Positions 8,885 to 42,481 of a DNA stretch of 64,000 nt are shown piece after piece. The first letter of the stretch is position 1, and each line of letters opens with the position of its first letter. Under the pieces are notes generated by a model. The model did no database searches and was not told the origin of the DNA. It saw only the letters and a list, made by a program, of their open reading frames with translations. Source of the DNA: Desulfovibrionales bacterium. Its GTDB lineage: Bacteria > Desulfobacterota > Desulfovibrionia > Desulfovibrionales > Desulfomicrobiaceae. The position numbers and the translations under genes were made by a program. The stretch covers positions 1-64,000 of the forward strand of contig JAAYCS010000155.1 in the NCBI GenBank assembly GCA_012729655.1, given 5' to 3'.

Positions 8885-10108
8885 TTACGTCCACAACCCC
8901 ATGGCCGTCCGCAGATTCTCGTCCAGCCGGGCCAGGAACTCCTCGGTGGTCAACCAGCTCTGCCCGGGACCGACCAGAATGGCCAGATCCTTGGTCATGG
9001 CCCCGGACTCCACAGTGTCGATGCAGACCTTCTCCAGGGCCTCTGCAAAACGCACCACCTCCGGGGTCTGGTCGAACGTACCGCGGTACCAGAGACCCCG
9101 GGTCCAGGCGAAGATCGAGGCGATGGGGTTGGTGGAGGTCTTCCGCCCCTGCTGGTGCTCCCTGAAATGGCGGGTCACTGTGCCGTGGGCCGCCTCCGCC
9201 GCGACGGTGCTTCCGTCCTCGGTCATCAGCACCGAAGTCATCAGGCCCAGGGAGCCGAAACCCTGGGCCACCGTGTCCGACTGCACATCCCCATCATAGT
9301 TTTTGCACGCCCAGACAAAGCCTCCGGACCACTTCAGGGCGGAGGCCACCATGTCGTCGATGAGGCGATGCTCGTAGGTGATTCCCGCCTTCTGGAACCG
9401 GTCTTTGAATTCCGTTTCGTACACTTCCTGGAAAATGTCCTTGAACCGGCCATCGTACTTTTTGAGGATGGTGTTCTTGGTCGACAGATAGACCGGCCAG
9501 CCGAGGTTCAGCCCATAGTTCATGCATGAGCGGGCAAAACCGCGGATGGATGCGTCGAGGTTGTACATGCCCAGGGCGCAGCCGGAACCCGGGAAATTGA
9601 AGACTTCGAAATCCTGGGCCGGACCTCCGTCGGCCGGGGTGAAGGTCATGGTCAGCCGGCCTGGGCCCGGCACCAGAAAATCCGTGGCCTTGTACTGATC
9701 CCCGAATGCATGACGGCCAATGACGATGGGCTTTGTCCAGCCCGGCACCAGGCGGGGAATGTTGGAGCAAATGATGGGCTGACGGAAAATCGTGCCCCCG
9801 ACGATATTGCGGATGGTGCCGTTGGGCGAACGCCACATCTTTTTCAGATGGAACTCCTTGACCCGTGACTCGTCCGGGGTGATGGTCGCGCACTTGACGC
9901 CCACCCTGACCCTCTTGATGGCCTCGCCCGCCTCGATGGTCACCCTGTCCTCTGTGGCATCGCGGTTCTGCACCGAAAGGTCGTAGTACTGAAGATCGAT
10001 CTCCAGATAGGGCAGAATCAGCTTGTCCTTGATGAACTTCCAGATAATCCTCGTCATTTCATCCCCGTCGATCTCGACGACGGGATTTTTCACCTTGATT
10101 TTGTGCAT
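8885..10108 (-). CDS. icd: NADP-dependent isocitrate dehydrogenase
   Basis: A 407-residue enzyme of the dimeric isocitrate dehydrogenase type related to eukaryotic cytosolic/mitochondrial NADP-IDH, oxidising isocitrate to 2-oxoglutarate and CO2. Seen are [13 protein letters not shown], the substrate loop [16 protein letters not shown], and the metal-binding [22 protein letters not shown] segment. [13 protein letters not shown], near the nucleotide site, is typical of NADP specificity. ATG 10108 has GAGGAAGG just upstream and gives the usual family N-terminus and length, although the frame stays open further upstream. It is a single-gene unit. Confidence 0.95.
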
Positions 10109-10473
10109 GTTCCTTCCTCGATGTGATGTTTTCCAGCGGGATCTGCCCGGCGGCCCTGCTGCAAGGAGATTTTGGATATCCCTTGCACGGGAAATACTCT
10201 CAGTAACGCGCGGGTTTTTTCCCTTAGTCAAAGACTTGGCTTCGCGCAATCGCCGGCAGCCGGGCCGAACAAACGGTTCAAGCTGGTCGCAGACCTGCAC
10301 GGGCTTAAACCGAGGCAACCTCGTGCGCCTTCACCGCCGATCATGACCGGCGTGCGATCGGACAGGCCAAGGGACGGCCCTCGCCTGCATGGCAGCTTAT
10401 GTGCAGGATGCACGCGGTTCCGGACGTCACCTTCGTGCATATGTAACATATTGGGACGATTTAAAAACTCCAG
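10109..10473 (-). other. Intergenic region, 365 bp, no gene recognised
   Basis: Between icd and the phosphatase operon end, both on the minus strand. It must hold the icd promoter, but no convincing -35/-10 pair was found. Imperfect short inverted repeats (for example CACCGCCG with CGGCGTG near 10338) are weak. No RNA gene or plausible small gene seen. Confidence 0.5.
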
Positions 10474-11514
10474 TCAGCTGGACCTGAGCATGAGGTGGAA
10501 AAGTTTCTGTACATATCTCCCTGACACCACATCGGCCAAGGCAAAGACAGGCAGGACTTCGCGGGCCATCACGCCGGCAATGGCCAGCCACATTTCCAGG
10601 GACAGCCTTTCCAGGGAGGGAGCCAGAACGGTTTCCCACAGTTCTCTGGAGGCATCGGCCGCCAGGCCGTGAGACCTGCACTGCAGGGGCCGGCAACTGA
10701 AAAGCATGCACTTCGCATCCTGATTCAGGGGGCAAAGGGCGCCCGCGTCAGAAAGGCAGAATGTCTCTGCCTGCACCTCCTGCACCGTGGCCCGCTCGCG
10801 CTTGGCCGTTTCCACAGCCCGGGCAATGACCTCCAACCGCCTCTCGCTGGTCAGCCTCACGTTCATCTGGTGGGTCAGGGAAACCGCCTCGACCAGGGAC
10901 AATGTCACGGGCGTGCGGCAGCAACGGTCATGGTCTTGACCGCACCGCAACGTTCCATGGGCAGCGGCCAGCCCGTCAACCCTGCTCCACAGCGCTTCAT
11001 AGTCGCGAAGATAGGGACTGAAATCCACGGCCCGGTGCATTTCCAGAGTGGGTTCGCGCACCGAGAGACGCGGGCTGCTTTTGCCGTATTTGCGAATGGT
11101 CCACCACTGGGCGAAATTCGAGGGCTTGGAGCGCAACGTGCGCAGCTTGAACCAGGCCAGGCGGTGTCCGAGACCCCTGCGCAACAGGTACGCGTTGAGC
11201 ACGGTCCCTGTCCGGCCAATCCCGTGCCGGCAATGGATGAGCACTTTCTTGCCCAGATAGATGGCCTCGTCGAGCCAGGCCAGGGCCTTTTCCAGTTCCT
11301 CAAGCTCCGGGGCCTCCTCGTCTGCCAGGGGCATGTGGTACACCTCGAACCCGGCTGCGCATTCGATCTCATGCAAATCGCAGAATTCCCCGCACAAGTT
11401 CAAAATGGCAACGATTCCGGCCTCGCGCAGGCAGTCGAGCTGCTCATAGCTCATGGGTGCGGCCCCGACTGCCAGCTGATCTGTGACCCACGTGGGGCTG
11501 TAGGCGGCGCTCAT
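10474..11514 (-). CDS. Dual-specificity protein phosphatase fused to a YkgJ-type Cys cluster
   Basis: A 346-residue protein of two parts. Residues 1-140 are a compact dual-specificity/tyrosine phosphatase with catalytic loop HCRHGIGRTG (C95, R101) and a likely general acid D65 in PLADEE. Residues 190-285 carry a YkgJ-like metal-cluster pattern: RCGQDHDRCCRTPV (C191, C198, C199), then C253, C261 and CMLFSCRPLQCRSHG (C269, C274, C279). YkgJ proteins are thought to bind a zinc or Fe-S centre; their role is unknown. The start overlaps the stop of the phosphotransferase gene by 4 bp (ATGA). It is the last gene of the five-gene operon, presumably removing phosphate from a protein modified upstream (inference). 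Confidence 0.85.
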   Translation of the reverse strand: MSAAYSPTWVTDQLAVGAAPMSYEQLDCLREAGIVAILNLCGEFCDLHEIECAAGFEVYHMPLADEEAPELEELEKALAWLDEAIYLGKKVLIHCRHGIGRTGTVLNAYLLRRGLGHRLAWFKLRTLRSKPSNFAQWWTIRKYGKSSPRLSVREPTLEMHRAVDFSPYLRDYEALWSRVDGLAAAHGTLRCGQDHDRCCRTPVTLSLVEAVSLTHQMNVRLTSERRLEVIARAVETAKRERATVQEVQAETFCLSDAGALCPLNQDAKCMLFSCRPLQCRSHGLAADASRELWETVLAPSLERLSLEMWLAIAGVMAREVLPVFALADVVSGRYVQKLFHLMLRSS

Positions 11515-13958
11515 CTGTCCCCTCCCAAAAGAAAACGACCTATAAAGGATTGGGCTTCCTCCTCGGCCTGGGTTCTGCCGTGCAGCTTCATGTCCTGCAG
11601 ACGGGTGGCCGCCAGAATAAGACCCAGGACGTGCAGGGCCCGTGAGGTTTCCGCAGCGGACTGACGGGAAAAGGCGGCGTCAAGCATGTCCCCTTTGATG
11701 ACCGTGTCAAACCCGCTCTGGGACAATACACGCTCGATAAAAACAAGACGGTGCCCGCGCTGCTCCATGGCCGCCCCGCCACCTTTAAAGCAAAACTTGA
11801 TATAATTTGTCCCGGCCTCATCCCCGCACAGAGAATCCACGATGGAGTAATGATAGCCGAAGCGGATGTTCAGGTGCATGTATTCCGATGCGATCAGTGC
11901 ATAGCTGGCCAGGATTTTCGAATCGAGCCGAAAGATCCCGCCGCTGACCCGGTCGAACTCCTCCCAGTCCACATGCAGCTGGGAGTGATCCCAGGCAATG
12001 CGCCCGTCGGTCATGCCGGCCCACAAGGGCTGCAGCGGGCGGCACGTCAGATGGCCTGCGTGAACAGGGCCATTGTCTCCAGACTCTGGCGAGAGTCCGC
12101 CACCAAGGTCGAGCACGTACATGACCAGGGGCAAGCTGGTGGTCAATCTTCTGGCCTTGCCCAGGCCCCGGCCGCCCCGACCCACCAGAGAGAACATCTC
12201 GGACACGCTCTGCTCGTGACAGAAGCGAACCATGTCGTGCAACGACTGGCACCCCTCGGGAGAAAACTGCGGATGTTGCGGGTCGGTCAGGTTCAGTTTC
12301 ACGGTGCGCAGGACCAGGGCCTCTGTCCCGGTCCGGACCAGGGTTCTGGCCTCTGCGGCGTGCAGATCCCGTTCCACGATCGTCGACAGGCAGTCGGAAA
12401 AAATTCGTCCGGCCGCGGCATCCACGGTGACAACCTGCCCGGCCATTAACGACGCACCTTCCCGGCCCACCACCACTGGAATCCCGCGCTCCCTGGCCAC
12501 GGAGGCGAGGTGGCTGGCCCGACTGCCGCTTTCTGAAACGATGGCTGCGATGCGGTCCAGAAACTGGGACAAAGCGGGTCGCATGGAAGAGGTCACCACC
12601 ACGGAGCCCTTGGGAATATCCTGAAAATTGGTACCCAGCGTGGCGTGATATACCGGTCCGCAGGCTGCGCCCGGAGCGGCGCAGTCCAGACCTGAGAGGA
12701 GGATTTTCGCTGCTGCGATCTCCTGTGCCGAAAAAACCTCCTGTTCAGGGTCCTGCAGCAGCCTCCTGGTCTGCAGGATGATGATCCCCTGCGGCCCAAA
12801 GGCCCATTCCACATCCTGAGGCTCCCCGAAATGCCTTTCCAGGACCAGACTCCACGCGCCCAGTCCAACGACTGCCTCGTCCGGCAGAACCGAAAATCCT
12901 GCAAAGGCAGACCCGGACAGAATGCGCGGCAGCTCCTCCCGACTCAAACAGTACTTTCCCGGGGTTGCCGATCCATCCACCAGTTGGTCGCCAATGCCCT
13001 GGACCACGTAGGCGGCCATGGATTCACCCCGGACTGCGCAGGACGGATCCCGGGTGTAGACCACCCCAGCTGCTGTGGCCTCGATCATGGGGACGACCAG
13101 CACTGCCATGGCCGTATCGGCGTCCGACAGGCCATGCCGGATGCGATAGGCCACGGCCCGGGGGCAGTATTTGCCGGCCAGGGCCCGTTTGTAGGCCGCA
13201 AGGACATCTTGGGGAGGCACATTCAACTCGCTGGCGTACTGACCGGCAAAGGAAATCCTGCCATCCTCGGCCAGGGCGCTGGAGCGCACAGCCAGAAACC
13301 CGCCATGGGACAGATCATGTGCGGCCGCACTGATCTGGGCGGCGATGTCCTCCGGAACTGTCCCGGCCAGGATCAGCTCCTGCATTTCTGCGGTGGCCTG
13401 GATGATCCCGTCATGATTGGCCAGGGAGACACCCTGGAAGCACCGTTCCACCTCGTCTTCCAGCTTGTTCTCGCGCAGATAGCGGGCAAAGGCCTGGACC
13501 GTGATCACGAATCCGGGTGGAGTGGGGGCCCCGAGCCGGCGGGACACTGCCAGATTGAACGCCTTCCCGCCGACCCGTTGCGGATGATCGGCTGCCTCGT
13601 CCAGACTGAGGACGTAGGGGGGGGAAACATCCATGTCCTGCTCTGCCAAGCATGGTGCAACTTCTGCGCGAATTCGCTCCAACGCCGTGGAAAGGGGTTC
13701 GTGCATGGAGGGATTCATGCCCGAAAGCTCCAGGGTCATGTCACGCACAGCCTGGACCAACTGGGTGGTCAGGGACCTGATCCTGGCCATGTCGGCCGGA
13801 TCATGCCCGTACAGATGGCTGTCCAGATCCGCGATCACGTCCTGGGCCAGGGCATCGATACGCAACAATTCCATGAAATGTTCGTATTTTCTCCGGATGA
13901 ACTTGTCCGGAGCCAGAATGCGGGTGGACCAGTGGCGGAACAGACGGGAGGCGGTCAT
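11511..13958 (-). CDS. PEP-synthase-like phosphotransferase of unusual architecture
   Basis: An 815-residue protein. Residues 1-110 are a helical extension of unknown type. About 114-440 is a PPDK-N ATP-grasp domain (RVGGKAFNLAVSRRLG, GFLAVRSSALAEDG, GVVYTRDPS, DVEWAFGPQGIIILQTR). About 455-535 is the swivelling phosphohistidine domain with H483 in SGSRASHLASVARERGIPVVVG-type sequence. The C-terminal 270 residues are not the PEP/pyruvate TIM barrel; they include GYHYSIVDSLCGDEAG and a KGGGAAM segment of unknown function. So the His phosphate is probably passed to something other than pyruvate, as in rifampin phosphotransferase, whose domain set is similar but not identical (inference). It sits between a receiver and a protein phosphatase. 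Confidence 0.85.
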   Translation of the reverse strand: MTASRLFRHWSTRILAPDKFIRRKYEHFMELLRIDALAQDVIADLDSHLYGHDPADMARIRSLTTQLVQAVRDMTLELSGMNPSMHEPLSTALERIRAEVAPCLAEQDMDVSPPYVLSLDEAADHPQRVGGKAFNLAVSRRLGAPTPPGFVITVQAFARYLRENKLEDEVERCFQGVSLANHDGIIQATAEMQELILAGTVPEDIAAQISAAAHDLSHGGFLAVRSSALAEDGRISFAGQYASELNVPPQDVLAAYKRALAGKYCPRAVAYRIRHGLSDADTAMAVLVVPMIEATAAGVVYTRDPSCAVRGESMAAYVVQGIGDQLVDGSATPGKYCLSREELPRILSGSAFAGFSVLPDEAVVGLGAWSLVLERHFGEPQDVEWAFGPQGIIILQTRRLLQDPEQEVFSAQEIAAAKILLSGLDCAAPGAACGPVYHATLGTNFQDIPKGSVVVTSSMRPALSQFLDRIAAIVSESGSRASHLASVARERGIPVVVGREGASLMAGQVVTVDAAAGRIFSDCLSTIVERDLHAAEARTLVRTGTEALVLRTVKLNLTDPQHPQFSPEGCQSLHDMVRFCHEQSVSEMFSLVGRGGRGLGKARRLTTSLPLVMYVLDLGGGLSPESGDNGPVHAGHLTCRPLQPLWAGMTDGRIAWDHSQLHVDWEEFDRVSGGIFRLDSKILASYALIASEYMHLNIRFGYHYSIVDSLCGDEAGTNYIKFCFKGGGAAMEQRGHRLVFIERVLSQSGFDTVIKGDMLDAAFSRQSAAETSRALHVLGLILAATRLQDMKLHGRTQAEEEAQSFIGRFLLGGDR

Positions 13959-13976
13959 GGCATCTCTCGAACAGAG

Positions 13977-14342
13977 TCAGGAGTTACTTTCCAATACTTC
14001 CAATACTTTGGATTCCAACTCCTCCTTGTCGATCGGCTTGACGCAGTATTCGTTGGCCCCCAACTTGAGCGCCTCCCGGGCCGTTTCCAGGGTCGGATAG
14101 CCCGTGAGCATGATGATTTTGATGTCAGGCGCGTGCTTTTTCATTTCGGCCAGGACTTCGACCCCGGTCAGCCTTTTCAGCTTCATGTCCAGAATGGCCA
14201 AATCCGTCGTTCCCTTGGCCACGTGCCGGATGGCGTCCTCTTCTTCCGTAAAGGCCGTGACCTGATGTCCCTTGCGGTCCAGGATGCGCTTGACCAGGGT
14301 CCCCGCATCGGAAACATCATCCAGAACTACGATCGATGCCAT
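13977..14342 (-). CDS. Single-domain response regulator
   Basis: A 121-residue receiver with acidic pair D8-D9, phosphoacceptor D52 in LAILDMKL, Thr in MLTGYP and Lys in YCVKPID. ATG 14342 is chosen because AAGGAGGA stands six bases upstream and the receiver begins there; a longer start five codons upstream is possible. It lies 27 bp after the histidine kinase and 18 bp before the phosphotransferase gene, so it is almost certainly the kinase's partner. It has no output domain and so must act by protein contact, plausibly on the neighbouring phosphotransferase (inference). Confidence 0.9.
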   Translation of the reverse strand: MASIVVLDDVSDAGTLVKRILDRKGHQVTAFTEEEDAIRHVAKGTTDLAILDMKLKRLTGVEVLAEMKKHAPDIKIIMLTGYPTLETAREALKLGANEYCVKPIDKEELESKVLEVLESNS

Positions 14343-14369
14343 GTATTCCTCCTTCATAGAATGGGCAGG

Positions 14370-16403
14370 TCAGAATCCGCTGTGATGATCCAGGGGGATG
14401 TCCACCGTGAAGACGGTTCCTGGCCCTCTGCCTGCTCCCGGGGGCAGAGGGGGGAAATCGGCATCGGCGGGCAGGGGACTGTCCACCCGGATCTCGCCCA
14501 TGTGGTCCTTGATGATGCCAAAGGACACGGAAAGCCCCAACCCCGTGCCTTGGCCCACGGCCTTGGTGGTGAAGAACGGATCGAAAATCTTTTTCTTGGC
14601 TGCCTCGTCAATGCCCATTCCGCTGTCCATGACTTGCATGGTCACGATGCCCTGCGGCGTGTTCAACTGGGTGCTGACCACGATGACCCCGCCGCCTTTG
14701 GGAATGGCGTCCTTGGCGTTGTTCAGAAGATTGAGCCAGACCTGTTTGAGTCGTTCCGGATCGCCATAAATGATGGGGAAGCTGTCGTCGAGTCGGGTCA
14801 CGATCTCCACCCGGTCCAGGGAAAAGGAATGCCTCACCAGGCTGACCGACTCCATCACTGAATTGTTGAAGCACATTTCCCGCTTGTCCGACACGGCCTG
14901 ACGGGAGAACCCCAGCAAATCGGCCACGATCTTGCGGCAGACCTTGGCCTGCTTCTCGATGATGCCCAGATCCTGGGCCTGCTGGCTCTCGGGTGGCGTG
15001 TCATCCTTGAGCAGCTGGGCATAACCCAGGATGATGCCCAGGGGAGTGTTGATCTCATGGGCCACCCCGCCGGCCAGTTTGCCGATGGATTCCATTTTCT
15101 GGGCCTGGATGAGCTGTTGCTCGTATGCCTTGATGTCGGTGATGTCCCGGTCCATGCGCATGAGACCAACGATGTGTCCGGATTCGTCGTGAACCGGAAT
15201 CTGGACCACATGAAACCACTTCTGTCCTTTCTGCCCGTCCACGCGCTCCTGCCTGTCCACCCGCTTGCCCGTGACCAGGACTTCGCGGCCTTCCAGATTC
15301 CTGCGTTCTGCTTCGTCTTCGGGAAAAAGATGAAAGTCATTGAGCCCTTGGATTTCAGCCACGCTTTTACCCACACTTTGGGCAAAGGCACGGTTGGCTG
15401 CCTGATAGACCATACGTGTGTCCACCATGGAAATGAGATCAGGGTTCATGTCCAGGACCGTGGACAACAGCCGTTGCTGGCGGGTCAAGATCTGCTGCGC
15501 CTCCCGTAATCCCCGGATATGGTCCCGCAGTGTGTAGGCCATGAAGTCGAAGGTTTCGGACAGGTCCTGGATCTCGTCGCCCACGCTCTGCTGGAATACG
15601 GGACAGTCATGGCAACTGGCCGGCTTGGGACCGAGCTTGCAGGCATGGCTGGCGCATTTGGTCTCGGGGATGAGCCAGCACCTGCGCATGCGGTCCTGAT
15701 GGGCCGGACACTCATTTTCACGGCAGTGCATGATCTCCCAGCAGAAATGCTCCTTTGGCAGAATTGCCAGGGTTTCGAGGCTGCCGGTGACCAGTTCCTC
15801 GGCGTGGCTTCGCAATTCACCCAACCGCTGGGTCACGGTGCGGGCAAAAATGCTGCCCAGAGCCATGGCCGCCAGCAGCACTCCACCGAACATGGTGGCG
15901 ATGGCTGAAACGAGCTGGCGGGTCGTGCCGCTGATGCGGGACTTGGAAAGCCCAACCCGGACCGTGCCGATGCGTTCGCCGGCGACCACGACGGGTGCGG
16001 CAAAATCGTAGATGAATATCTGGCCCGTATCGAGCAACTGGACATGAATCCCCTGCTCGTCACCCACGGCATTGGCCTGCATCAGGTCCACGGGAAAACC
16101 CTTTGGAAAGGAATGGGTGACCACTCGTCCGTCGGCGTTTTGCACAAAGGCATAGACCATGTCCCCAGTTTCCCCGACCATGTTGCGCAGGCGCAGATAG
16201 TCCTGGGCCAGCAGGGGATCCACGGCCCGTGCGGCAAGGCTTTCGGCCATGGCGATTCCACGGAGCTTGTTCTCTTCCACCATGGCGGTGGATGTCATCC
16301 TGGCCACCACGGGCAAAAGAACCAGGGCCATGCCGAGAACGATGGCGATGATGCCCAGATTGAGCTTGGTCTCGAATTTAAGCCGGGAAAAAAGGGTTTT
16401 CAC
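14370..16403 (-). CDS. Membrane histidine kinase with Cys-rich two-CW-like linker and PAS domain
   Basis: A 677-residue kinase from GTG 16403, overlapping the upstream stop by 4 bp, with AGGAGA upstream. The first membrane span is at 14-34 and the second at 164-187, with a 130-residue extracytoplasmic sensor between them. Where a HAMP domain would normally lie, residues 219-270 hold eight cysteines (221, 227, 232, 242, 250, 255, 264, 267), including FCWEIMHC and RRCW, resembling the two-CW domain. A PAS domain follows (about 305-425), then HisKA with H449 in GVAHEINTPL and HATPase_c (LLNNAKDAI, DSGMGI, GQGTGLGLSV). The Cys cluster suggests redox or metal control (inference). Confidence 0.92.
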   Translation of the reverse strand: MKTLFSRLKFETKLNLGIIAIVLGMALVLLPVVARMTSTAMVEENKLRGIAMAESLAARAVDPLLAQDYLRLRNMVGETGDMVYAFVQNADGRVVTHSFPKGFPVDLMQANAVGDEQGIHVQLLDTGQIFIYDFAAPVVVAGERIGTVRVGLSKSRISGTTRQLVSAIATMFGGVLLAAMALGSIFARTVTQRLGELRSHAEELVTGSLETLAILPKEHFCWEIMHCRENECPAHQDRMRRCWLIPETKCASHACKLGPKPASCHDCPVFQQSVGDEIQDLSETFDFMAYTLRDHIRGLREAQQILTRQQRLLSTVLDMNPDLISMVDTRMVYQAANRAFAQSVGKSVAEIQGLNDFHLFPEDEAERRNLEGREVLVTGKRVDRQERVDGQKGQKWFHVVQIPVHDESGHIVGLMRMDRDITDIKAYEQQLIQAQKMESIGKLAGGVAHEINTPLGIILGYAQLLKDDTPPESQQAQDLGIIEKQAKVCRKIVADLLGFSRQAVSDKREMCFNNSVMESVSLVRHSFSLDRVEIVTRLDDSFPIIYGDPERLKQVWLNLLNNAKDAIPKGGGVIVVSTQLNTPQGIVTMQVMDSGMGIDEAAKKKIFDPFFTTKAVGQGTGLGLSVSFGIIKDHMGEIRVDSPLPADADFPPLPPGAGRGPGTVFTVDIPLDHHSGF

Positions 16404-17323
16404 CGCCCTATCTCTCCTAGCCCCAGAGCCTTCTCCAAATCGCGCACCGACTGGTAATCCTCGTCCCGGGCGCTGATGATGCCAACCATGCCCGCCGGCT
16501 TCAGGATTGCGGCGTCCTCGGCTCGACGCATGTCCAGATCGAACAGGGCCTTGGCTATCTTGTCCTTGACCGACGGGTCGAATCCCCTGCGCGCGGAATA
16601 CACCCAGCCCGGGTATGGTCTGCTCTCGGCCAGAACCCGGATCTGGTCCAGGTCGATTTTGTCCCGGACCACGGAAAGCGTTCCCTTGCGGATCGTGCCC
16701 ACGTCGTAGGCCCCGGCGTAGACTGCCAAAACCACCGACTCCTGCTTCCCTCCCGCCCCCGATGCAAAGGCAATTTCCCGGAAGTCCTCCCGCCGGATGC
16801 CGTGTTCGTAGAAGTGGCCGAGTGGGTACAAATAGCCGCCAGCCGATGCCGGATCCACGGCGATAAGCCGCTTGCCCCGGCAATCCTCGATGCTTCTGAT
16901 GGCCGGGTTGTCGACACGCACGATGATCTGTCCGGAAAAATCAGCACCGCCTTCGGGCTCGACAATGCGGGCAAAGGCCTCGGAGCCGAAGCGGGCCATG
17001 GTGGTGTAGACAAAGGGGTTGGTGAAGGAAATATCGATTTCCCCGCGCTCCACCATCCTGATGTGCTCGGCAAAGGTATCGGGGAAAACCTGGCGGAATG
17101 GCACACCTGTCTTGTGCCGCAGGTATTCAAGCAATCGGCGGTGGCGTTCGAAGGACACAGAGTGGGAATACTGGGGCAGGTAGGCATAGGTCACGGCCTT
17201 GTCATGCCCCGGAGGAGAAACCGTTTCGACCCGGAACATGTCCACGGTCACGACAGGCTCATTTTCGCCGCAACCGGACAATGCCGCAAGAAAAAGAAAA
17301 ACGACGGCCCGCACCAGGAACAT
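16400..17323 (-). CDS. PhnD-like periplasmic binding lipoprotein
   Basis: A 307-residue protein of the phosphate/phosphonate/phosphite-binding PhnD family. An N-terminal lipoprotein signal ends in LSGC with lipidated C18. The body shows YLPQYSHSVSFERHRRLLEYL, the ligand-site segment ISFTNPFVYTTM, and CRGKRLIAVDPASAGGYLYP, with a C-terminal EDAAILKPAGMVGI region. It is the first gene of the operon and overlaps the histidine kinase by 4 bp, with no ABC permease or ATPase nearby. It therefore probably acts as a sensor subunit handing its ligand state to the kinase rather than as a transporter (inference). The ligand cannot be read from sequence. Confidence 0.88.
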   Translation of the reverse strand: MFLVRAVVFLFLAALSGCGENEPVVTVDMFRVETVSPPGHDKAVTYAYLPQYSHSVSFERHRRLLEYLRHKTGVPFRQVFPDTFAEHIRMVERGEIDISFTNPFVYTTMARFGSEAFARIVEPEGGADFSGQIIVRVDNPAIRSIEDCRGKRLIAVDPASAGGYLYPLGHFYEHGIRREDFREIAFASGAGGKQESVVLAVYAGAYDVGTIRKGTLSVVRDKIDLDQIRVLAESRPYPGWVYSARRGFDPSVKDKIAKALFDLDMRRAEDAAILKPAGMVGIISARDEDYQSVRDLEKALGLGEIGR

Positions 17324-17537
17324 GCTTCACCACCCAGCGTACTTCCTTCGATGCTGCGACAGTATGCCAAAGAACCATGTCGGACAACACAAAGGTTCCA
17401 TCCCAAAGTGTCCGGGCAGTCAACCACACCGGTCGAAAATCCCTCCTTGCATGAGGTCCCCACCCCTGGCCCTTGCTGGAACCCGGGTGACGCTGTATCA
17501 ACAACACGACTCCATACCTCAACGCCCCGGAGGGCCC

Positions 17538-18398
17538 ATGCATTCGGTCAGAAAACTCGCCAGAATCGATTTCAATATACCCGGCGTAAAAGTGGTCGGG
17601 ATGGAGCTGATAACCCTGCTCAATGCCCCGGAACCGAACATGGTCGAGATCGCCCGCACCGCCGAACTGGACCCGGCTGTTCTGGGATCCATCCTGGCCT
17701 GCGCCAATTCTCCGCTCTACGGAGGCATAACGGAAGTGGTCGACTTGCGGGTGGCCCTGCCCAGACTGGGCCTCAAAGAAATTCGGCGCATCATTTTTCA
17801 TGTCGTGCTGGAGTCGGCCTTTCGCTCCGACAATGCCGAAGCCAACACGGTGTTGCGCGAACTCTGGCGCCTGAGTCTGACCGTTGCCCTGATCATGCAG
17901 CGCCTCATACCCGACTGTCCGCAAGTGCGCAGCCTCCCGGTGGACAGGTTGGCCATGGTTTATCCCCTGGGACTCATGCACTCTATCGGCATTCCGGTCC
18001 TGCTCATCAATTTCTTTGATATTTTCGCGAAAGTCCTGCGCGAGGGGGTGGACCCATCCCAACCCCAGATGTTCCATCGGGAAAAGGGGCTTTTCGACGG
18101 ATTCGACCACTGCGTCCTGGGGTCGGAACTGGTCAGCCGCTGGGGCTTTCCGGACTTCTTCTGCGATGTGATTGGCGCTTACCATCAGGCGAACCCGGAC
18201 CTCAACGCGCACAGCCGCGTTCTGCACTCGCTGCTCCGCTATGCGCGCTATCTTGCCGCGGACCTTGTCGCAGCCGATGACACGCACCAGGACTACTGGC
18301 TGCAGGGAAACATGCTGGACACCTCGTCGGTGGATCCCGTGTCGGTCATGGCCGATGTCATCGACCAGATCAGCAACATCCCGCTCATGCTGAAATGA
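17538..18398 (+). CDS. HDOD domain protein
   Basis: A 286-residue protein made of an HDOD domain (ARTAELDPAVLGSILACANSPLYGG, LRVALPRLGLKEIRRII, GLMHSIGIPVLL, SRWGFPDFFCDVIGAYH). HDOD domains resemble HD phosphohydrolases but lack the full metal site; such proteins occur in signalling and motility control. ATG 17538 has CGGAGG six bases upstream; the frame is open further 5' but without a ribosome site. Divergent from the PhnD-kinase operon across a 214-bp gap in which no clear promoter was identified. Confidence 0.85.
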   Translation: MHSVRKLARIDFNIPGVKVVGMELITLLNAPEPNMVEIARTAELDPAVLGSILACANSPLYGGITEVVDLRVALPRLGLKEIRRIIFHVVLESAFRSDNAEANTVLRELWRLSLTVALIMQRLIPDCPQVRSLPVDRLAMVYPLGLMHSIGIPVLLINFFDIFAKVLREGVDPSQPQMFHREKGLFDGFDHCVLGSELVSRWGFPDFFCDVIGAYHQANPDLNAHSRVLHSLLRYARYLAADLVAADDTHQDYWLQGNMLDTSSVDPVSVMADVIDQISNIPLMLK

Positions 18399-18526: not shown

Positions 18527-19783
18527 TTAGAATCGGTAGGTCAGGCTGAGACCGCCCATGTGCGCATGGGCATCTTCCCGCGTCAGCTCGACGATGCCCT
18601 CCCGGGGAGTCCTCGGCTCGTAATCGCGGTCCTTCATCCACAGGTAGCCATAGGACACGTCCGCGGTCCAGGCCTCGTTTATCCTCCATCCTGCGCCCAG
18701 GGTCACGATCTGGCGGTCGGTGCAGGGCACGGCGAAATCCTCGTAATCGTCGTTGACCGGGGACTGGTCGTAAACATAGCCGGCACGCAGGGCCACGGTA
18801 TCCGTCAGGGCGTACTCGGCGCCGAACTCGAAGCGCCAGGTGTTGCTCCAGTGCTTGGGGGCGGAGACGTCGCCCAGAATCTCGTCGTACTCGATGACCA
18901 GTTCCTTGTAGGCGCTCCAGTTCGTCCACACGGCGTCAAACTCGAGGCTCAGACGGTCCATGGGCTTGACCATGACGCCCATGGTCACGGACTCGGGCAC
19001 GGGCTCGGTGCCGGAGACATCGATGCTGTCCTTGAGAGGGGTCATGGAGAGCGGGACGACACCCTTCTGGCTGAACTCGGCCTCCCCGTCGACCGTGAGC
19101 TGGATCTCGCTGCGCCACAGGATGCCGAAAGCAAGCCAGTCATAGGGGCGGTAACGGGCAGCCAGGCTCATGCCGTACCCCCACCCGTCGGCGGATATCT
19201 CCTGCTTGATGTCGCCCGTGTTCGTCGCCGGGTTGTATGCCCTGAGAACGTCCGAGGTCATGTGGTATCCGAAGTCCAGGTAGGTCATGTCCACGCCAAC
19301 GGCCAGGGAGAAGGCGTCGGAGAACTTCATGGCCAGATTGGGGGTGAAGCTCACGGACTTGATGGCAGCGTAGGAGCAACTGTAGCGTCCGGCCCAGGTG
19401 TCGGGGTCGTCGTAGTCCGTGCCCAGGCCCACGCGCGAGAACATGCCCATGCCGAACCAGTAGTTGTCCGAGAGCTGCCGGGTGTAGTACATGGTCGGCA
19501 GGGGCCAGACGTGGTCCGCGAAGTCCATGCTTTCGAGGCCTTCCTGATGGACGTCCATGGTCGCCGAGGGGGCCACGGCCGTGAAGCCGAGCTGGAACTG
19601 GTCGCCAGGCAGGTCCGTGATGGCCGCCGGGTTGTAGGCCACGGCCGAAGGGTCCGCATCCCTGGCCACCATTGCCCCGCCCAGGGCGTTGCCCCTGGCA
19701 CTCCATTCGTAGATTCCGTATCCCGCCGCCCAGACCTGCCACGGCATGAGCGCCAACACCAAGCCCACGATCCATCTGCGCAT
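18527..19783 (-). CDS. FadL/OMPP1-type outer membrane transport protein
   Basis: A 418-residue outer membrane beta-barrel. Signal peptide: residues 1-19 (RRWIVGLVLALMPWQVWA, cleaved before AGYGIYEW). The FadL-family N-terminal plug signature is present: WSARGNALGGAMVARDADPSAVAYNPAAIT. Alternating aromatic/hydrophobic strands follow, and the chain ends LTYRF with a C-terminal Phe as in barrel proteins. FadL proteins let hydrophobic molecules such as long-chain fatty acids or aromatics cross the outer membrane. A PAS/HTH regulator is transcribed divergently 147 bp away and may control it (inference). A GC-rich palindrome at 18497-18519 after the stop may act as terminator. Confidence 0.92.
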   Translation of the reverse strand: MRRWIVGLVLALMPWQVWAAGYGIYEWSARGNALGGAMVARDADPSAVAYNPAAITDLPGDQFQLGFTAVAPSATMDVHQEGLESMDFADHVWPLPTMYYTRQLSDNYWFGMGMFSRVGLGTDYDDPDTWAGRYSCSYAAIKSVSFTPNLAMKFSDAFSLAVGVDMTYLDFGYHMTSDVLRAYNPATNTGDIKQEISADGWGYGMSLAARYRPYDWLAFGILWRSEIQLTVDGEAEFSQKGVVPLSMTPLKDSIDVSGTEPVPESVTMGVMVKPMDRLSLEFDAVWTNWSAYKELVIEYDEILGDVSAPKHWSNTWRFEFGAEYALTDTVALRAGYVYDQSPVNDDYEDFAVPCTDRQIVTLGAGWRINEAWTADVSYGYLWMKDRDYEPRTPREGIVELTREDAHAHMGGLSLTYRF

Positions 19784-39292: not shown

Positions 39293-40084
39293 ATGGAACA
39301 GACCGATACATTCGAACTCGGCGGGCGGGCCCTGACCAGCCGCCTTTTCACCGGAACCGGCAAATACGGCGACGATGGCCTCATCCCGGCCGTATGCGAA
39401 GCCTCAGGCTCCCAGGTCATCACCGTTGCCCTCCGTCGGGTTGATCTCGACAAAGGAGCGGACAACGTCATGCGCCATATCCCCGGTCACATGACCCTCC
39501 TGCCCAACACCTCCGGCGCGCGCACCGCGGACGAGGCCGTGCGCATCGCGCGCCTTGCCAGAGCAATGGGCTGCGGCAACTGGATCAAGATCGAGGTCAT
39601 CTCGGACAACCGCTATCTTCTGCCCGACGGATACGAAACAGTCAGGGCCACGGAAATTCTGGCCCGGGAGGGCTTTGTTGTCCTGCCGTACATGAACCCG
39701 GACCTCTATGTGGCCCGCTCCCTGGCAAACGCCGGAGCCGCGGCCATCATGCCCCTGGGCGCCCCCATCGGGACCAACCGGGGGCTGAGAACCGAAGAGA
39801 TGATCCGCATCCTGATCGAGGAAATGTCCCTGCCCATCATCGTCGACGCCGGCATCGGCACCCCGAGTCAGGCCTGCCAAGCCATGGAAATGGGCGCACA
39901 TGCCTGCCTGGTCAACACCGCCATCGCCACCGCAGCCGATCCCATAGGCATGGCCCGTGCTTTTGGCCAGGCGGTTCAGGCCGGGCGCAGGGCCTACCTC
40001 GCCGGGTTGGGTTCGGTAGCCGCCCTGGCCCGGGCCTCCTCGCCCTTGACTGGATTTCTGGATCAGGAGGAGGGCGGCATATGA
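39293..40084 (+). CDS. thiG: Thiazole synthase ThiG
   Basis: A 263-residue (beta/alpha)8 enzyme that builds the thiazole phosphate of thiamine from deoxyxylulose 5-phosphate, dehydroglycine and ThiS thiocarboxylate. Motifs: [49 protein letters not shown] (Schiff-base Lys), [13 protein letters not shown] and [11 protein letters not shown]. It starts 60 bp after thiS with AAGGA upstream and overlaps thiH by 4 bp. Confidence 0.95.
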
Positions 40085-41193
40085 CCTTCCTGCCTGAAGC
40101 CCTGCATCTGGCCACATACCCCCTGGAGGGCAGTTTCCAGAAGGTGGACGGAAACGAGGTTCTTCGCGCCATCGGCCGGGATTCCCTCACCGCCGAGGGA
40201 TTCCTGGCCCTGCTCTCCCCGGCAGCCTCACCCCATCTCGAAGCCATGGCCTCCCGTGCGCGGGATCTGACCATGCGCCATTTCGGCCGGACAGTGAGCC
40301 TTTTCACCCCTCTCTACCTTTCCAATCACTGCGCCAACCATTGCCGCTACTGCGGTTTCGCGGCCAGGAACACCATCCCGCGCACCCAGCTGAACCTGGA
40401 AGAAGTCCGAGCCGAGGGTGAAGCAATAGCGGCCACCGGACTGAAGCAGATTCTCCTCCTGACCGGCGAAGCCCCGCACAAGGCCGGGGTGGACTATCTG
40501 GAGGCCTGCGTCGCGGTGCTGAGGCCCCTGTTTCCCTCCATCGCCATCGAGGTCTTTCCCATGGAAACAGAGGACTATGCCCGGCTGGTCCGAGCCGGGG
40601 TGGACGGACTGACGGTCTTCCAGGAAACCTACGATCCCGAGCTCTACGCCCAGCTCCATCCAGCCGGCCCCAAGAGGGATTTCGTCTTCCGTTTGAACAC
40701 GCCCCAGCGCGGTGCCGAGGCGGGCATGCGCATCGTCAATATTGGCGCACTGCTCGGCCTTTCAGACTGGCGGCGTGAGATCTTCGCCACCGGCCTGCAC
40801 GCAGCCTGGCTGCAACGGCAATATCCAGGCGTGGACATAGCCGTGTCCCTGCCCCGTATGCGTCCTCATGCCGGGGACTTCGAACCCGCCTGCGTGGTTT
40901 CGGATCGCGACCTTGTCCAGGCCATGACCGCGTTGCGTATCTTTCTCCCCAGGCTGTCCGTCACGATCTCGACCCGCGAAACGCCGCGCTTCCGGGACAA
41001 CATTCTGCCTCTGGGCGTGACCCGCATGTCCGCCGGGGTCAGCACGGCCGTGGGAGGACACGCCAAGCCCGCAGAAACCGGGCAGTTCGAGATCTCCGAC
41101 GGCCGCAGCGTGGCCGAGGTCTGCCAAGTGCTCCGGGCCAGGGGCTACCAGCCTGTCTTCAAGGACTGGGAACCCCTGGAGGCGTCGGCGTGA
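40081..41193 (+). CDS. thiH: 2-iminoacetate synthase ThiH
   Basis: A 370-residue radical SAM tyrosine lyase making dehydroglycine (2-iminoacetate) from tyrosine, the anaerobic alternative to the oxygen-dependent ThiO. The cluster motif is CANHCRYC (C-x3-C-x2-C), in [19 protein letters not shown]-type sequence; later come [27 protein letters not shown] and the C-terminal [24 protein letters not shown] region. Overlaps thiG by 4 bp and thiF by 4 bp. Confidence 0.95.
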
Positions 41194-41816
41194 ACGCATT
41201 CGAGCAGGGTTTGACCCGTCACCTGGACGCCGGCTGGCTGCTCTATGCCCGGAACATCCGCATAGGCCTTATCGGCGCCGGCGGGCTGGGCTCCAACTGC
41301 GCCATGCACCTGGCCCGATCCGGATTCTCGAACCTGATCCTGGTCGATCCGGACCGGATCGAGGCCTCCAACCTGAACCGCCAGACGTTCTTCCTGCGGC
41401 AACTCGGATTCCCCAAAGTCGAGGCCCTGCGTGACAACATTCTGGCCGTGAATCCGGCCGCGCAAATCGAAACGCACATCCTGAGCGTGGAAGAGACGAA
41501 CATCATGGCCCTGTTTGGCTCCTGCCAGGCCGTGATAGAAGCCGTGGACCAGGCCGGGACCAAGAGGATGATCGCCGAGAGATTGGCGCCTGCCGGATGC
41601 CTTGTGGTCAGCGCCTCAGGCATGGGCGGCTCGGGTCGGACAGGGGCGATGCGTGTGCACGCCCTGGGCACGAACCTGGTCGTGGTCGGGGACATGGCAA
41701 CGCCTTGCGACGAAAACACCCCACCCCTGTCCCCGGGCGTCGGGATGGCCGCAGCCATGCAGGCCGACATTGTCCTGCAGCATTTCCTCAACCAGCACCA
41801 AGCGAGCAGAACATGA
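41190..41816 (+). CDS. thiF: ThiS adenylyltransferase ThiF
   Basis: A 208-residue E1-like enzyme that activates the ThiS C-terminus with ATP. The ATP-binding fold reads IGLIGAGGLGSNCAMHLARSG, with the R-containing SNLNRQTF motif after VDPDRIEASN. It lacks the two CxxC zinc pairs of E. coli ThiF, as in the shorter family form. The GTG start at 41190 overlaps the thiH stop; the stop overlaps the thiE start (ATGA). Confidence 0.92.
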   Translation: MNAFEQGLTRHLDAGWLLYARNIRIGLIGAGGLGSNCAMHLARSGFSNLILVDPDRIEASNLNRQTFFLRQLGFPKVEALRDNILAVNPAAQIETHILSVEETNIMALFGSCQAVIEAVDQAGTKRMIAERLAPAGCLVVSASGMGGSGRTGAMRVHALGTNLVVVGDMATPCDENTPPLSPGVGMAAAMQADIVLQHFLNQHQASRT

Positions 41817-42481
41817 ACGGACGCATCCTGGTTTCCGGTCTCATCCGTGAAGGTGGCCTCTACGGGCTGACCGCCGAAAAATTCTCCCTCGGCCGCTCCA
41901 ACCCCGACGTGGTCCGGGCCATGCTCGATGCCGGAATACGCATCGTCCAGTACCGCGAAAAGACGAAGAAAATGGGCGCCAAGTACGAGGAATGCAAGGT
42001 TCTGCGGGCCATGACGCGAGAACATGGCGCGGCCTTCATCATCAACGACGACATCGACTTGGCCCTGCTGGTCAACGCCGACGGCGTGCACGTGGGACAG
42101 GAGGACTTGCCTGTGCAGGCAGTCCGCCGCCTGGTCGGGGAGGGCATGGCCATCGGCCTGTCCACCCATGCCCCGCATGAGGCCGTTGCCGCGGCAACGG
42201 CCGGGGCCGACTATATCGGCGTAGGGCCCATTTTTGCCACCCAGACTAAGGAAGACGTCTGTGCTCCGGTAGGGCTCGCATACCTGGATTTCGTGGTCCG
42301 GGAAATCGATCTGCCTTTCGTGGCCATCGGCGGAATCAAGGAGGTCAACCTGCCTGACGTCGTGGCCCATGGCGCACGCTGCGCGGCCCTGGTCACGGAG
42401 ATTGTCGGGGCCGGGGACATGCAAACAAAAATCGCCCGCCTGCAGTCGTTGATGAATGCTCGCCTGCGCACCGTTTCCTGA
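41813..42481 (+). CDS. thiE: Thiamine phosphate synthase ThiE
   Basis: A 222-residue TIM-barrel enzyme joining the pyrimidine and thiazole moieties into thiamine phosphate. Motifs: IVQYREKTK, FIINDDIDLALLVNADGVHVGQEDLP-type substrate loop, GLSTHAP, DYIGVGPIFATQTKED and VAIGGIKEVN. It overlaps thiF by 4 bp. Ten bases after its stop the convergent phosphofructokinase gene ends, leaving no room for a terminator. Pyrimidine genes (thiC, thiD) are not in this window. Confidence 0.94.
   Translation: MNGRILVSGLIREGGLYGLTAEKFSLGRSNPDVVRAMLDAGIRIVQYREKTKKMGAKYEECKVLRAMTREHGAAFIINDDIDLALLVNADGVHVGQEDLPVQAVRRLVGEGMAIGLSTHAPHEAVAAATAGADYIGVGPIFATQTKEDVCAPVGLAYLDFVVREIDLPFVAIGGIKEVNLPDVVAHGARCAALVTEIVGAGDMQTKIARLQSLMNARLRTVS

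Follow-up and report, generated by a model that had tools for sequence, protein, structure and literature searches.

What a two-component system might accomplish together with a phosphotransferase of the PEP synthase type and a protein phosphatase is the question raised by five adjacent genes in the window (the whole stretch of DNA analysed here, 64,000 nucleotides). All lie on the minus strand (10474–17323) and the ORF list gives their order as SBP, a PhnD/PtxB-like periplasmic binding lipoprotein; HK, a membrane sensor kinase; REC, a stand-alone receiver; PEPL, the phosphotransferase; and DSPY, a phosphatase with a Cys-rich tail. ORF positions confirm the tight packing described in a first-pass annotation: 4-bp overlaps between SBP and HK and between PEPL and DSPY, and gaps of 27 bp between HK and REC and 18 bp between REC and PEPL. 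A motif scan for promoters and terminators found nothing above chance that would split the operon; sigma-70-like promoters were found neither inside it, a result within chance expectation, nor in the intergenic region (17324–17534) towards a divergent gene, which we presume to hold the promoter. A weak terminator-like hairpin at the operon end (10482–10469) is also within chance expectation. The divergent gene encodes an HDOD protein (17199–18398, plus strand), beyond which lies a gene for a FadL-type outer-membrane porin (18527–19783, minus strand). The operon is directly followed, on its own strand, by an isocitrate-dehydrogenase-like gene (8885–10318, minus strand), named by eye.

The first-pass annotation knew of no described system of this composition, but the same gene order has been described, with mutant phenotypes, and we therefore reject the label ‘novel five-gene system’. 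The operon is orthologous to the ‘nitrate cluster’ of Desulfovibrio vulgaris and D. alaskensis, DVU0251–DVU0245 and Dde_0597–Dde_0605 (Korte et al. 2014, PMC4001038), a match that rests on gene order, domains and lengths. The window order, on one strand, is that of DVU0249–0245 and Dde_0601–0605 (PMC4001038, Table 3): SBP is the orthologue of DVU0249/Dde_0601, PEPL of DVU0246/Dde_0604 and DSPY of DVU0245/Dde_0605. Further members of the nitrate cluster are DVU0251/Dde_0598, a permease of the TauE type, the conserved hypothetical protein DVU0250/Dde_0600 (here c6, a small membrane protein) and, for D. alaskensis, the DUF169 protein Dde_0597 (PMC4001038). The complete order DUF169-TauE-c6-SBP-HK-REC-PEPL-DSPY, equivalent to Dde_0597–0605, occurs in Desulfovibrio sp. 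A2 (L012), in L013 and in Halodesulfovibrio (L021), in which Pfam confirmed the identities of DUF169 and TauE. A literature search covering part of the relevant papers found the cluster described in Korte et al. alone.

Single insertion mutants of D. vulgaris in DVU0246 (PEPL), DVU0247 (REC), DVU0250 and DVU0251 grow with the same kinetics with or without 100 mM nitrate, the mutant in DVU0245 (phosphatase) is still inhibited by nitrate, and none of these cluster mutants is resistant to nitrite (PMC4001038). An insertion in PEPL could have a polar effect on the phosphatase gene only, the loss of which gives no resistance, and the nitrate effect is therefore probably that of PEPL itself. In pooled screens, SBP mutants also gain in nitrate, and the fitness of phosphatase mutants was +2.08 in D. 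alaskensis but −6.04 in D. vulgaris, in which single mutants did not in every case bear out the pooled values (PMC4001038); given this difference between species and the noise of pooled scores, the data conflict on whether loss of the phosphatase helps or harms in nitrate. The kinase gene of D. vulgaris is annotated as a pseudogene. Expression of the cluster trends upwards under nitrate and nitrite stress, and a leaky thiosulfate transporter was suggested, with no mechanism given (PMC4001038). The link to thiosulfate is based on unpublished data cited by Korte et al. (PMC4001038) and on a PhsA-like neighbour (see below).

Linkage of the genes was surveyed in 150 genomes of Desulfovibrionales and in 247 genomes at the level of the phylum. 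Homologues of PEPL (E ≤ 1e-60, paralogues included) are present in 121 of the 150 genomes of the order, SBP in 89, HK in 88 and DSPY in 88. In 74 of the 88 genomes with DSPY, no more than 600 bp separate it from PEPL (median gap 44 bp), and 65 of the 89 genomes with SBP have it at most 5 kb from PEPL. DSPY is patchy across the phylum (23/247 genomes) and mostly adjoins PEPL; among 61 PEPL loci, 34 have REC directly upstream, 47 have DSPY downstream and 28 have both. The co-occurrence of phosphotransferase, phosphatase fusion and kinase, which the first-pass annotation had proposed as a check, is thus strong, and its view of the five genes as one unit is borne out across order and phylum. These counts also show that members of the orthologous subfamily are not mostly found alone. 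The unit does come apart in places: L260, L264, L256, L165 and L177 keep REC-PEPL(-DSPY) as a block, with the usual sensor genes missing or at another place, and in some genomes SBP-HK(-REC) and PEPL-DSPY occupy separate places (L160/L161, L162/L163 and L156/L164).

SBP (16400–17323, ATG start) belongs to PF12974 (Phosphonate-bd; E = 1.5e-63), has the lipobox LSGC and has PhnD, HtxB, PtxB, ArrX and AioX as relatives in the PDB. Its score against the NCBIfam PhnD equivalog profile, 98 bits, is below the cut-off of 261 and, unlike a phosphonate or phosphite ABC transporter, the five-gene operon contains no ABC permease or ATPase gene detectable among its ORFs with Pfam. One TAG stands within the stretch aligned to SBP in each of three genomes from a single genus (G131, G118 and G080), possibly a natural stop near the C terminus that the alignment reads through. 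HK (14370–16403, GTG start at 16403) combines sCache_3_2, PAS (PAS_4), HisKA and HATPase domains with a HAMP-like part, and the phospho-acceptor His449 (codon 15057–15059, minus strand) in its H-box AHEINTPL is invariant in 35 of 35 orthologues. ‘Cys-rich kinase’, as the protein had been called, is right as to the kinase and softer as to the cysteines: the Cys-rich part resembles the NCBIfam two_CW_domain (NF045718) at 23.8 bits, below the cut-off of 35. This segment is dispensable, as it is missing from 5 of 35 orthologous kinases, among them those of L161, L163, L175 and L176. ArrX- and AioX-type systems likewise encode a PhnD-like binding protein together with a periplasm-sensing kinase; in contrast to these systems, the receiver in the window is without a DNA-binding domain and is followed by a phosphotransferase.

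REC (13977–14342, minus strand; 121 amino acids) is a CheY-like receiver that consists of PF00072 (Response_reg) alone. Its best start, ATG at 14342, is preceded by AAGGAGG, and both the start methionine and the phospho-acceptor Asp (codon 14187–14189, minus strand) are conserved in all 34 relatives. Receivers of 118–160 amino acids that lack a DNA-binding domain throughout these relatives distinguish the set from a classical two-component system with a transcription factor, in agreement with the first reading of the locus, and Pfam and NCBIfam profiles detected a DNA-binding domain in no gene of the cluster. A gene for a CheX-type CheY-P phosphatase (PF13690), likely to be an additional switch-off for the receiver, follows DSPY in relatives of the window's genus (L009, L019 and L140) and follows SBP-HK-REC in L163 (10248–10724). 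In distant members of the phylum (L253, L255, L256 and L259), the PEPL-DSPY neighbourhood contains a multi-TM kinase of about 520 amino acids together with a receiver that is 63–64% identical to the window REC, and L253 and L259 also have a PhsA-like gene nearby, which together suggest that the sensor has been exchanged.

The central enzyme, PEPL (11511–13958, minus strand), contains an ATP-grasp domain (PPDK_N) and a swivelling phosphohistidine domain (PEP-utilizers; residues 448–517), with about 115 residues before and about 290 after these that are unassigned in Pfam. The catalytic ATP-grasp and phosphohistidine-domain residues of PEP synthase and PPDK are present, and K132, R225, S226, S227, E231, D232, G239, R272, E384, H483, R489 and E490 are invariant in 45–46 active sequences. 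His483 (codon 12510–12512, minus strand), the histidine of the swivelling domain, is invariant in 46 of 46 active homologues and is absent, with its domain, from degenerate paralogues, which have also lost most ATP-site motifs. These residues support the earlier prediction that H483 is the phosphorylated histidine and that an apparently active swivelling-His phosphotransferase is paired here with a phosphatase. Two more specific names do not fit. ‘PEP synthase’ is rejected, because there is no PEP/pyruvate-binding C-terminal domain and the NCBIfam PEP_synth score is 215 bits against a cut-off of 740; ‘rifampin phosphotransferase’ is rejected on the wrong domain order and a score of 167 bits against 999. 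In most PEPL relatives, the Thr two positions before the His in the GGRTSH motif of PEP synthase is replaced by Ala, Gly or Cys (Ala481 in the window).

What surrounds these two domains sets PEPL apart from PEP synthase and PPDK, which share them: PEPL has no PEP/pyruvate-binding barrel and carries an additional N-terminal helical domain and a C-terminal domain of its own. The N-terminal helical domain (residues 1–115; 13614–13958, minus strand) matches no Pfam family, keeps P17, Y25 and F28 even in degenerate paralogues and is a candidate docking site for REC. The C-terminal domain (residues 524–815; 11514–12389, minus strand) has no Pfam match beyond chance among 54 members, no sequence relative in the PDB and, when its AlphaFold model was searched, no fold relative there (best TM about 0.2). 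The model is confident for this domain (pLDDT 85.5) and for the full-length protein (pLDDT 87.7, pTM 0.80). Significant PDB matches of the full-length model are PEP synthase, PPDK and rifampin phosphotransferase, with which PEPL shares by sequence only the ATP-grasp and His domains. The invariant residues of the C-terminal domain, H574, D575, R578, H581, D664, H703, R737 and D789, suggest from sequence a site for an acceptor or effector; several of these positions decay in degenerate copies. Further apparently active paralogues, about 30% identical and with the N- and C-terminal domains but with no DSPY partner, are encoded elsewhere in the same genome (contig C128, 108–2681 (L219); contigs C118 and C202).

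DSPY (10474–11514, minus strand) is a DSP/PTP phosphatase (Pfam DSPc/Tc-R-P), the closest solved relatives of which are small bacterial DSP/PTPs. In its active-site motif, HCRHGIGRT, the catalytic Cys95 (codon 11230–11232, minus strand) is invariant in 34 of 34 sequences, and C95, R101 and D65 are conserved in 33–34 of the 34. Six cysteines of the tail (191, 198, 199, 261, 269 and 279) are also invariant in all 34. Of the ‘phosphatase–YkgJ fusion’ proposed earlier, the phosphatase stands; the tail matches the CxxCxxCC profile of YkgJ (PF03692) weakly (14 bits against a cut-off of 23, E = 0.088), making that name a softer one.

The permease half of the nitrate cluster is present in the same genome but does not adjoin the operon. 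TauE (40848–41843) and c6 (39999–40553) are on the minus strand of contig C62 and are directly followed by a paralogue that aligns to PEPL residues 5–291 and 537–803 and is devoid of the His domain and ATP-site motifs. L215 and, from the window's genus, L212, L213, L214 and L218 share this arrangement. A TauE-c6-SBP-HK(-REC) set ends with a degenerate PEPL in L151, L161 and L166, where the active PEPL-DSPY set is separate. Nine loci, that of the window's own genome among them, have TauE-c6 beside a degenerate PEPL or in one operon with it; TauE and c6 adjoin the signalling genes in many genera, with L012, L013 and L021 among the examples. TauE accompanies SBP in 85 of 89 genomes and lies within 6 kb of it in 51 (raw counts that ignore kinship, so that their p-value exaggerates the association), and 23 genomes have TauE without SBP. 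Many loci have a PhsA-like molybdoenzyme and an Fe–S protein close to the cluster; the former occurs in 14 loci, of several families, carries no twin-arginine signal and is missing from some genomes. Because orthologous clusters hold TauE and a small membrane protein, and TauE so regularly accompanies SBP, PEPL is probably not the final output. The first-pass idea of a reversible phosphorylation switch is retained, with the permease and c6 as the more probable output.

We propose that the five genes form the signalling half of the nitrate cluster and that phosphorylation by PEPL, with the phosphatase working against it, activates the TauE permease, a reading to which we give about an even chance. 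SBP would bind a periplasmic anion, with thiosulfate or another sulfur oxyanion as the probable candidate, and set the activity of the sCache/PAS kinase; the kinase would phosphorylate REC, which would control PEPL by contact. PEPL would then load phosphate from ATP onto His483 and hand it to an acceptor held by its C-terminal domain, and DSPY would take that phosphate off. Without the phosphorylated state, the TauE-type permease and c6, its small partner in the membrane, would be inactive; nitrate could leak in through them. The invariant ATP site and H483, the conserved linkage, the co-occurrence of the permease and the shared mutant phenotype count for this cascade. The conflicting phosphatase phenotypes, the pseudogene annotation of the D. 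vulgaris kinase, the 23 genomes that have TauE but no SBP and a thiosulfate link drawn in part from a neighbour missing in some genomes weigh against it. Genes, conservation, catalytic residues, linkage and the degenerate copy were computed here, and nitrate resistance upon loss was reported by others (PMC4001038); we infer the ligand, the acceptor, the order of the steps and the contact between REC and PEPL. That PEPL would act on a protein, or on TauE, goes a step beyond gene content and published phenotypes, and VadK offers a precedent, as a histidine kinase of PPDK origin that controls a pathway through contact (PMC13400623). More tentatively, and less likely than not, the cluster could represent a new class of bacterial phosphorelay: fed by a binding protein, a two-component system would act through its receiver on an ATP-dependent swivelling-His phosphotransferase, which a PTP-type phosphatase opposes, and so gate a membrane anion permease after translation; a catalytically dead phosphotransferase copy would be the partner on the permease side.

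The main rival reading makes PEPL a metabolic small-molecule dikinase similar to rifampin phosphotransferase (RPH) or HpeHI: the permease would import a compound, the C-terminal domain would provide the site at which it is phosphorylated, DSPY or other enzymes would process the product and the two-component system would only sense. The nearest solved architectures are indeed small-molecule dikinases with a separate acceptor domain, the invariant H574, R578, H581 and H703 decay in degenerate copies as expected of a substrate pocket, and the PhsA-like enzyme without a Tat signal is nearby in 14 loci. However, mutants that have lost PEPL behave like those without the permease or the receiver (PMC4001038), and degenerate copies of PEPL persist beside the permease. 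An output-less receiver fixed on one side of the enzyme and a PTP-type phosphatase on the other would also be unusual for catabolism, and on balance we consider this reading unlikely.

Many two-component systems act on transcription, and the cascade might control transcription of the permease and reductase genes indirectly through another regulator, with PEPL as a phosphate sink or energy sensor. This would fit the upward expression trend of the cluster in nitrate and nitrite stress (PMC4001038), but the absence of any DNA-binding domain from the cluster and the persistence of the gene set where permease and signalling genes are far apart make it decidedly improbable. Least probable of all is that one transcript serves two functions, an ordinary sensor system and an unrelated housekeeping phosphotransferase–phosphatase pair, as the genomes with separate SBP-HK(-REC) and PEPL-DSPY loci might suggest. 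Against such a division, SBP is close to PEPL in most genomes (the 65 of 89 above), a REC is often still found with PEPL where the loci are split (L165, L167 and L177) and the genes have a common nitrate phenotype (PMC4001038).

Among known systems, the published nitrate cluster is alike in the order and domains of SBP, HK, REC, PEPL and phosphatase, and differs in that TauE and c6 are here on another contig beside a degenerate PEPL (PMC4001038). VadK (Rv1127c) of Mycobacterium tuberculosis, a PPDK-derived histidine kinase that interacts with enzymes of the methylcitrate cycle, is, as proposed here for PEPL, a PEP synthase/PPDK-type enzyme turned regulator; it acts with metabolic partner proteins but is without the C-terminal domain of PEPL and has not been described in a two-component system with a PTP phosphatase (PMC13400623). 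The RPH and HpeHI dikinases share with PEPL the combination of ATP-grasp, swivelling His and a separate acceptor domain without PDB relatives; in RPH, however, the acceptor domain precedes the His domain (His825 is at the C terminus), whereas the C-terminal domain of PEPL follows it and is unrelated in sequence. By analogy, VadK indicates that such an enzyme can become a regulator, and HpeHI and RPH indicate the route to a small-molecule kinase.

The composition of the cluster is thus partly known; the proposed mechanism and the C-terminal domain of PEPL are new. Since 2014, the nitrate cluster has stood as a genetic finding in want of an explanation: loss of the genes lets sulfate reducers grow in nitrate, a point of importance to the control of souring. 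The proposed cascade, with its predicted phosphohistidine, a C-terminal domain without Pfam or PDB relatives, a matching phosphatase and a permease as target, makes that result testable. If the proposal is true, a PEP-synthase-type enzyme would serve a two-component system as its output, next to VadK, a regulator described only recently.
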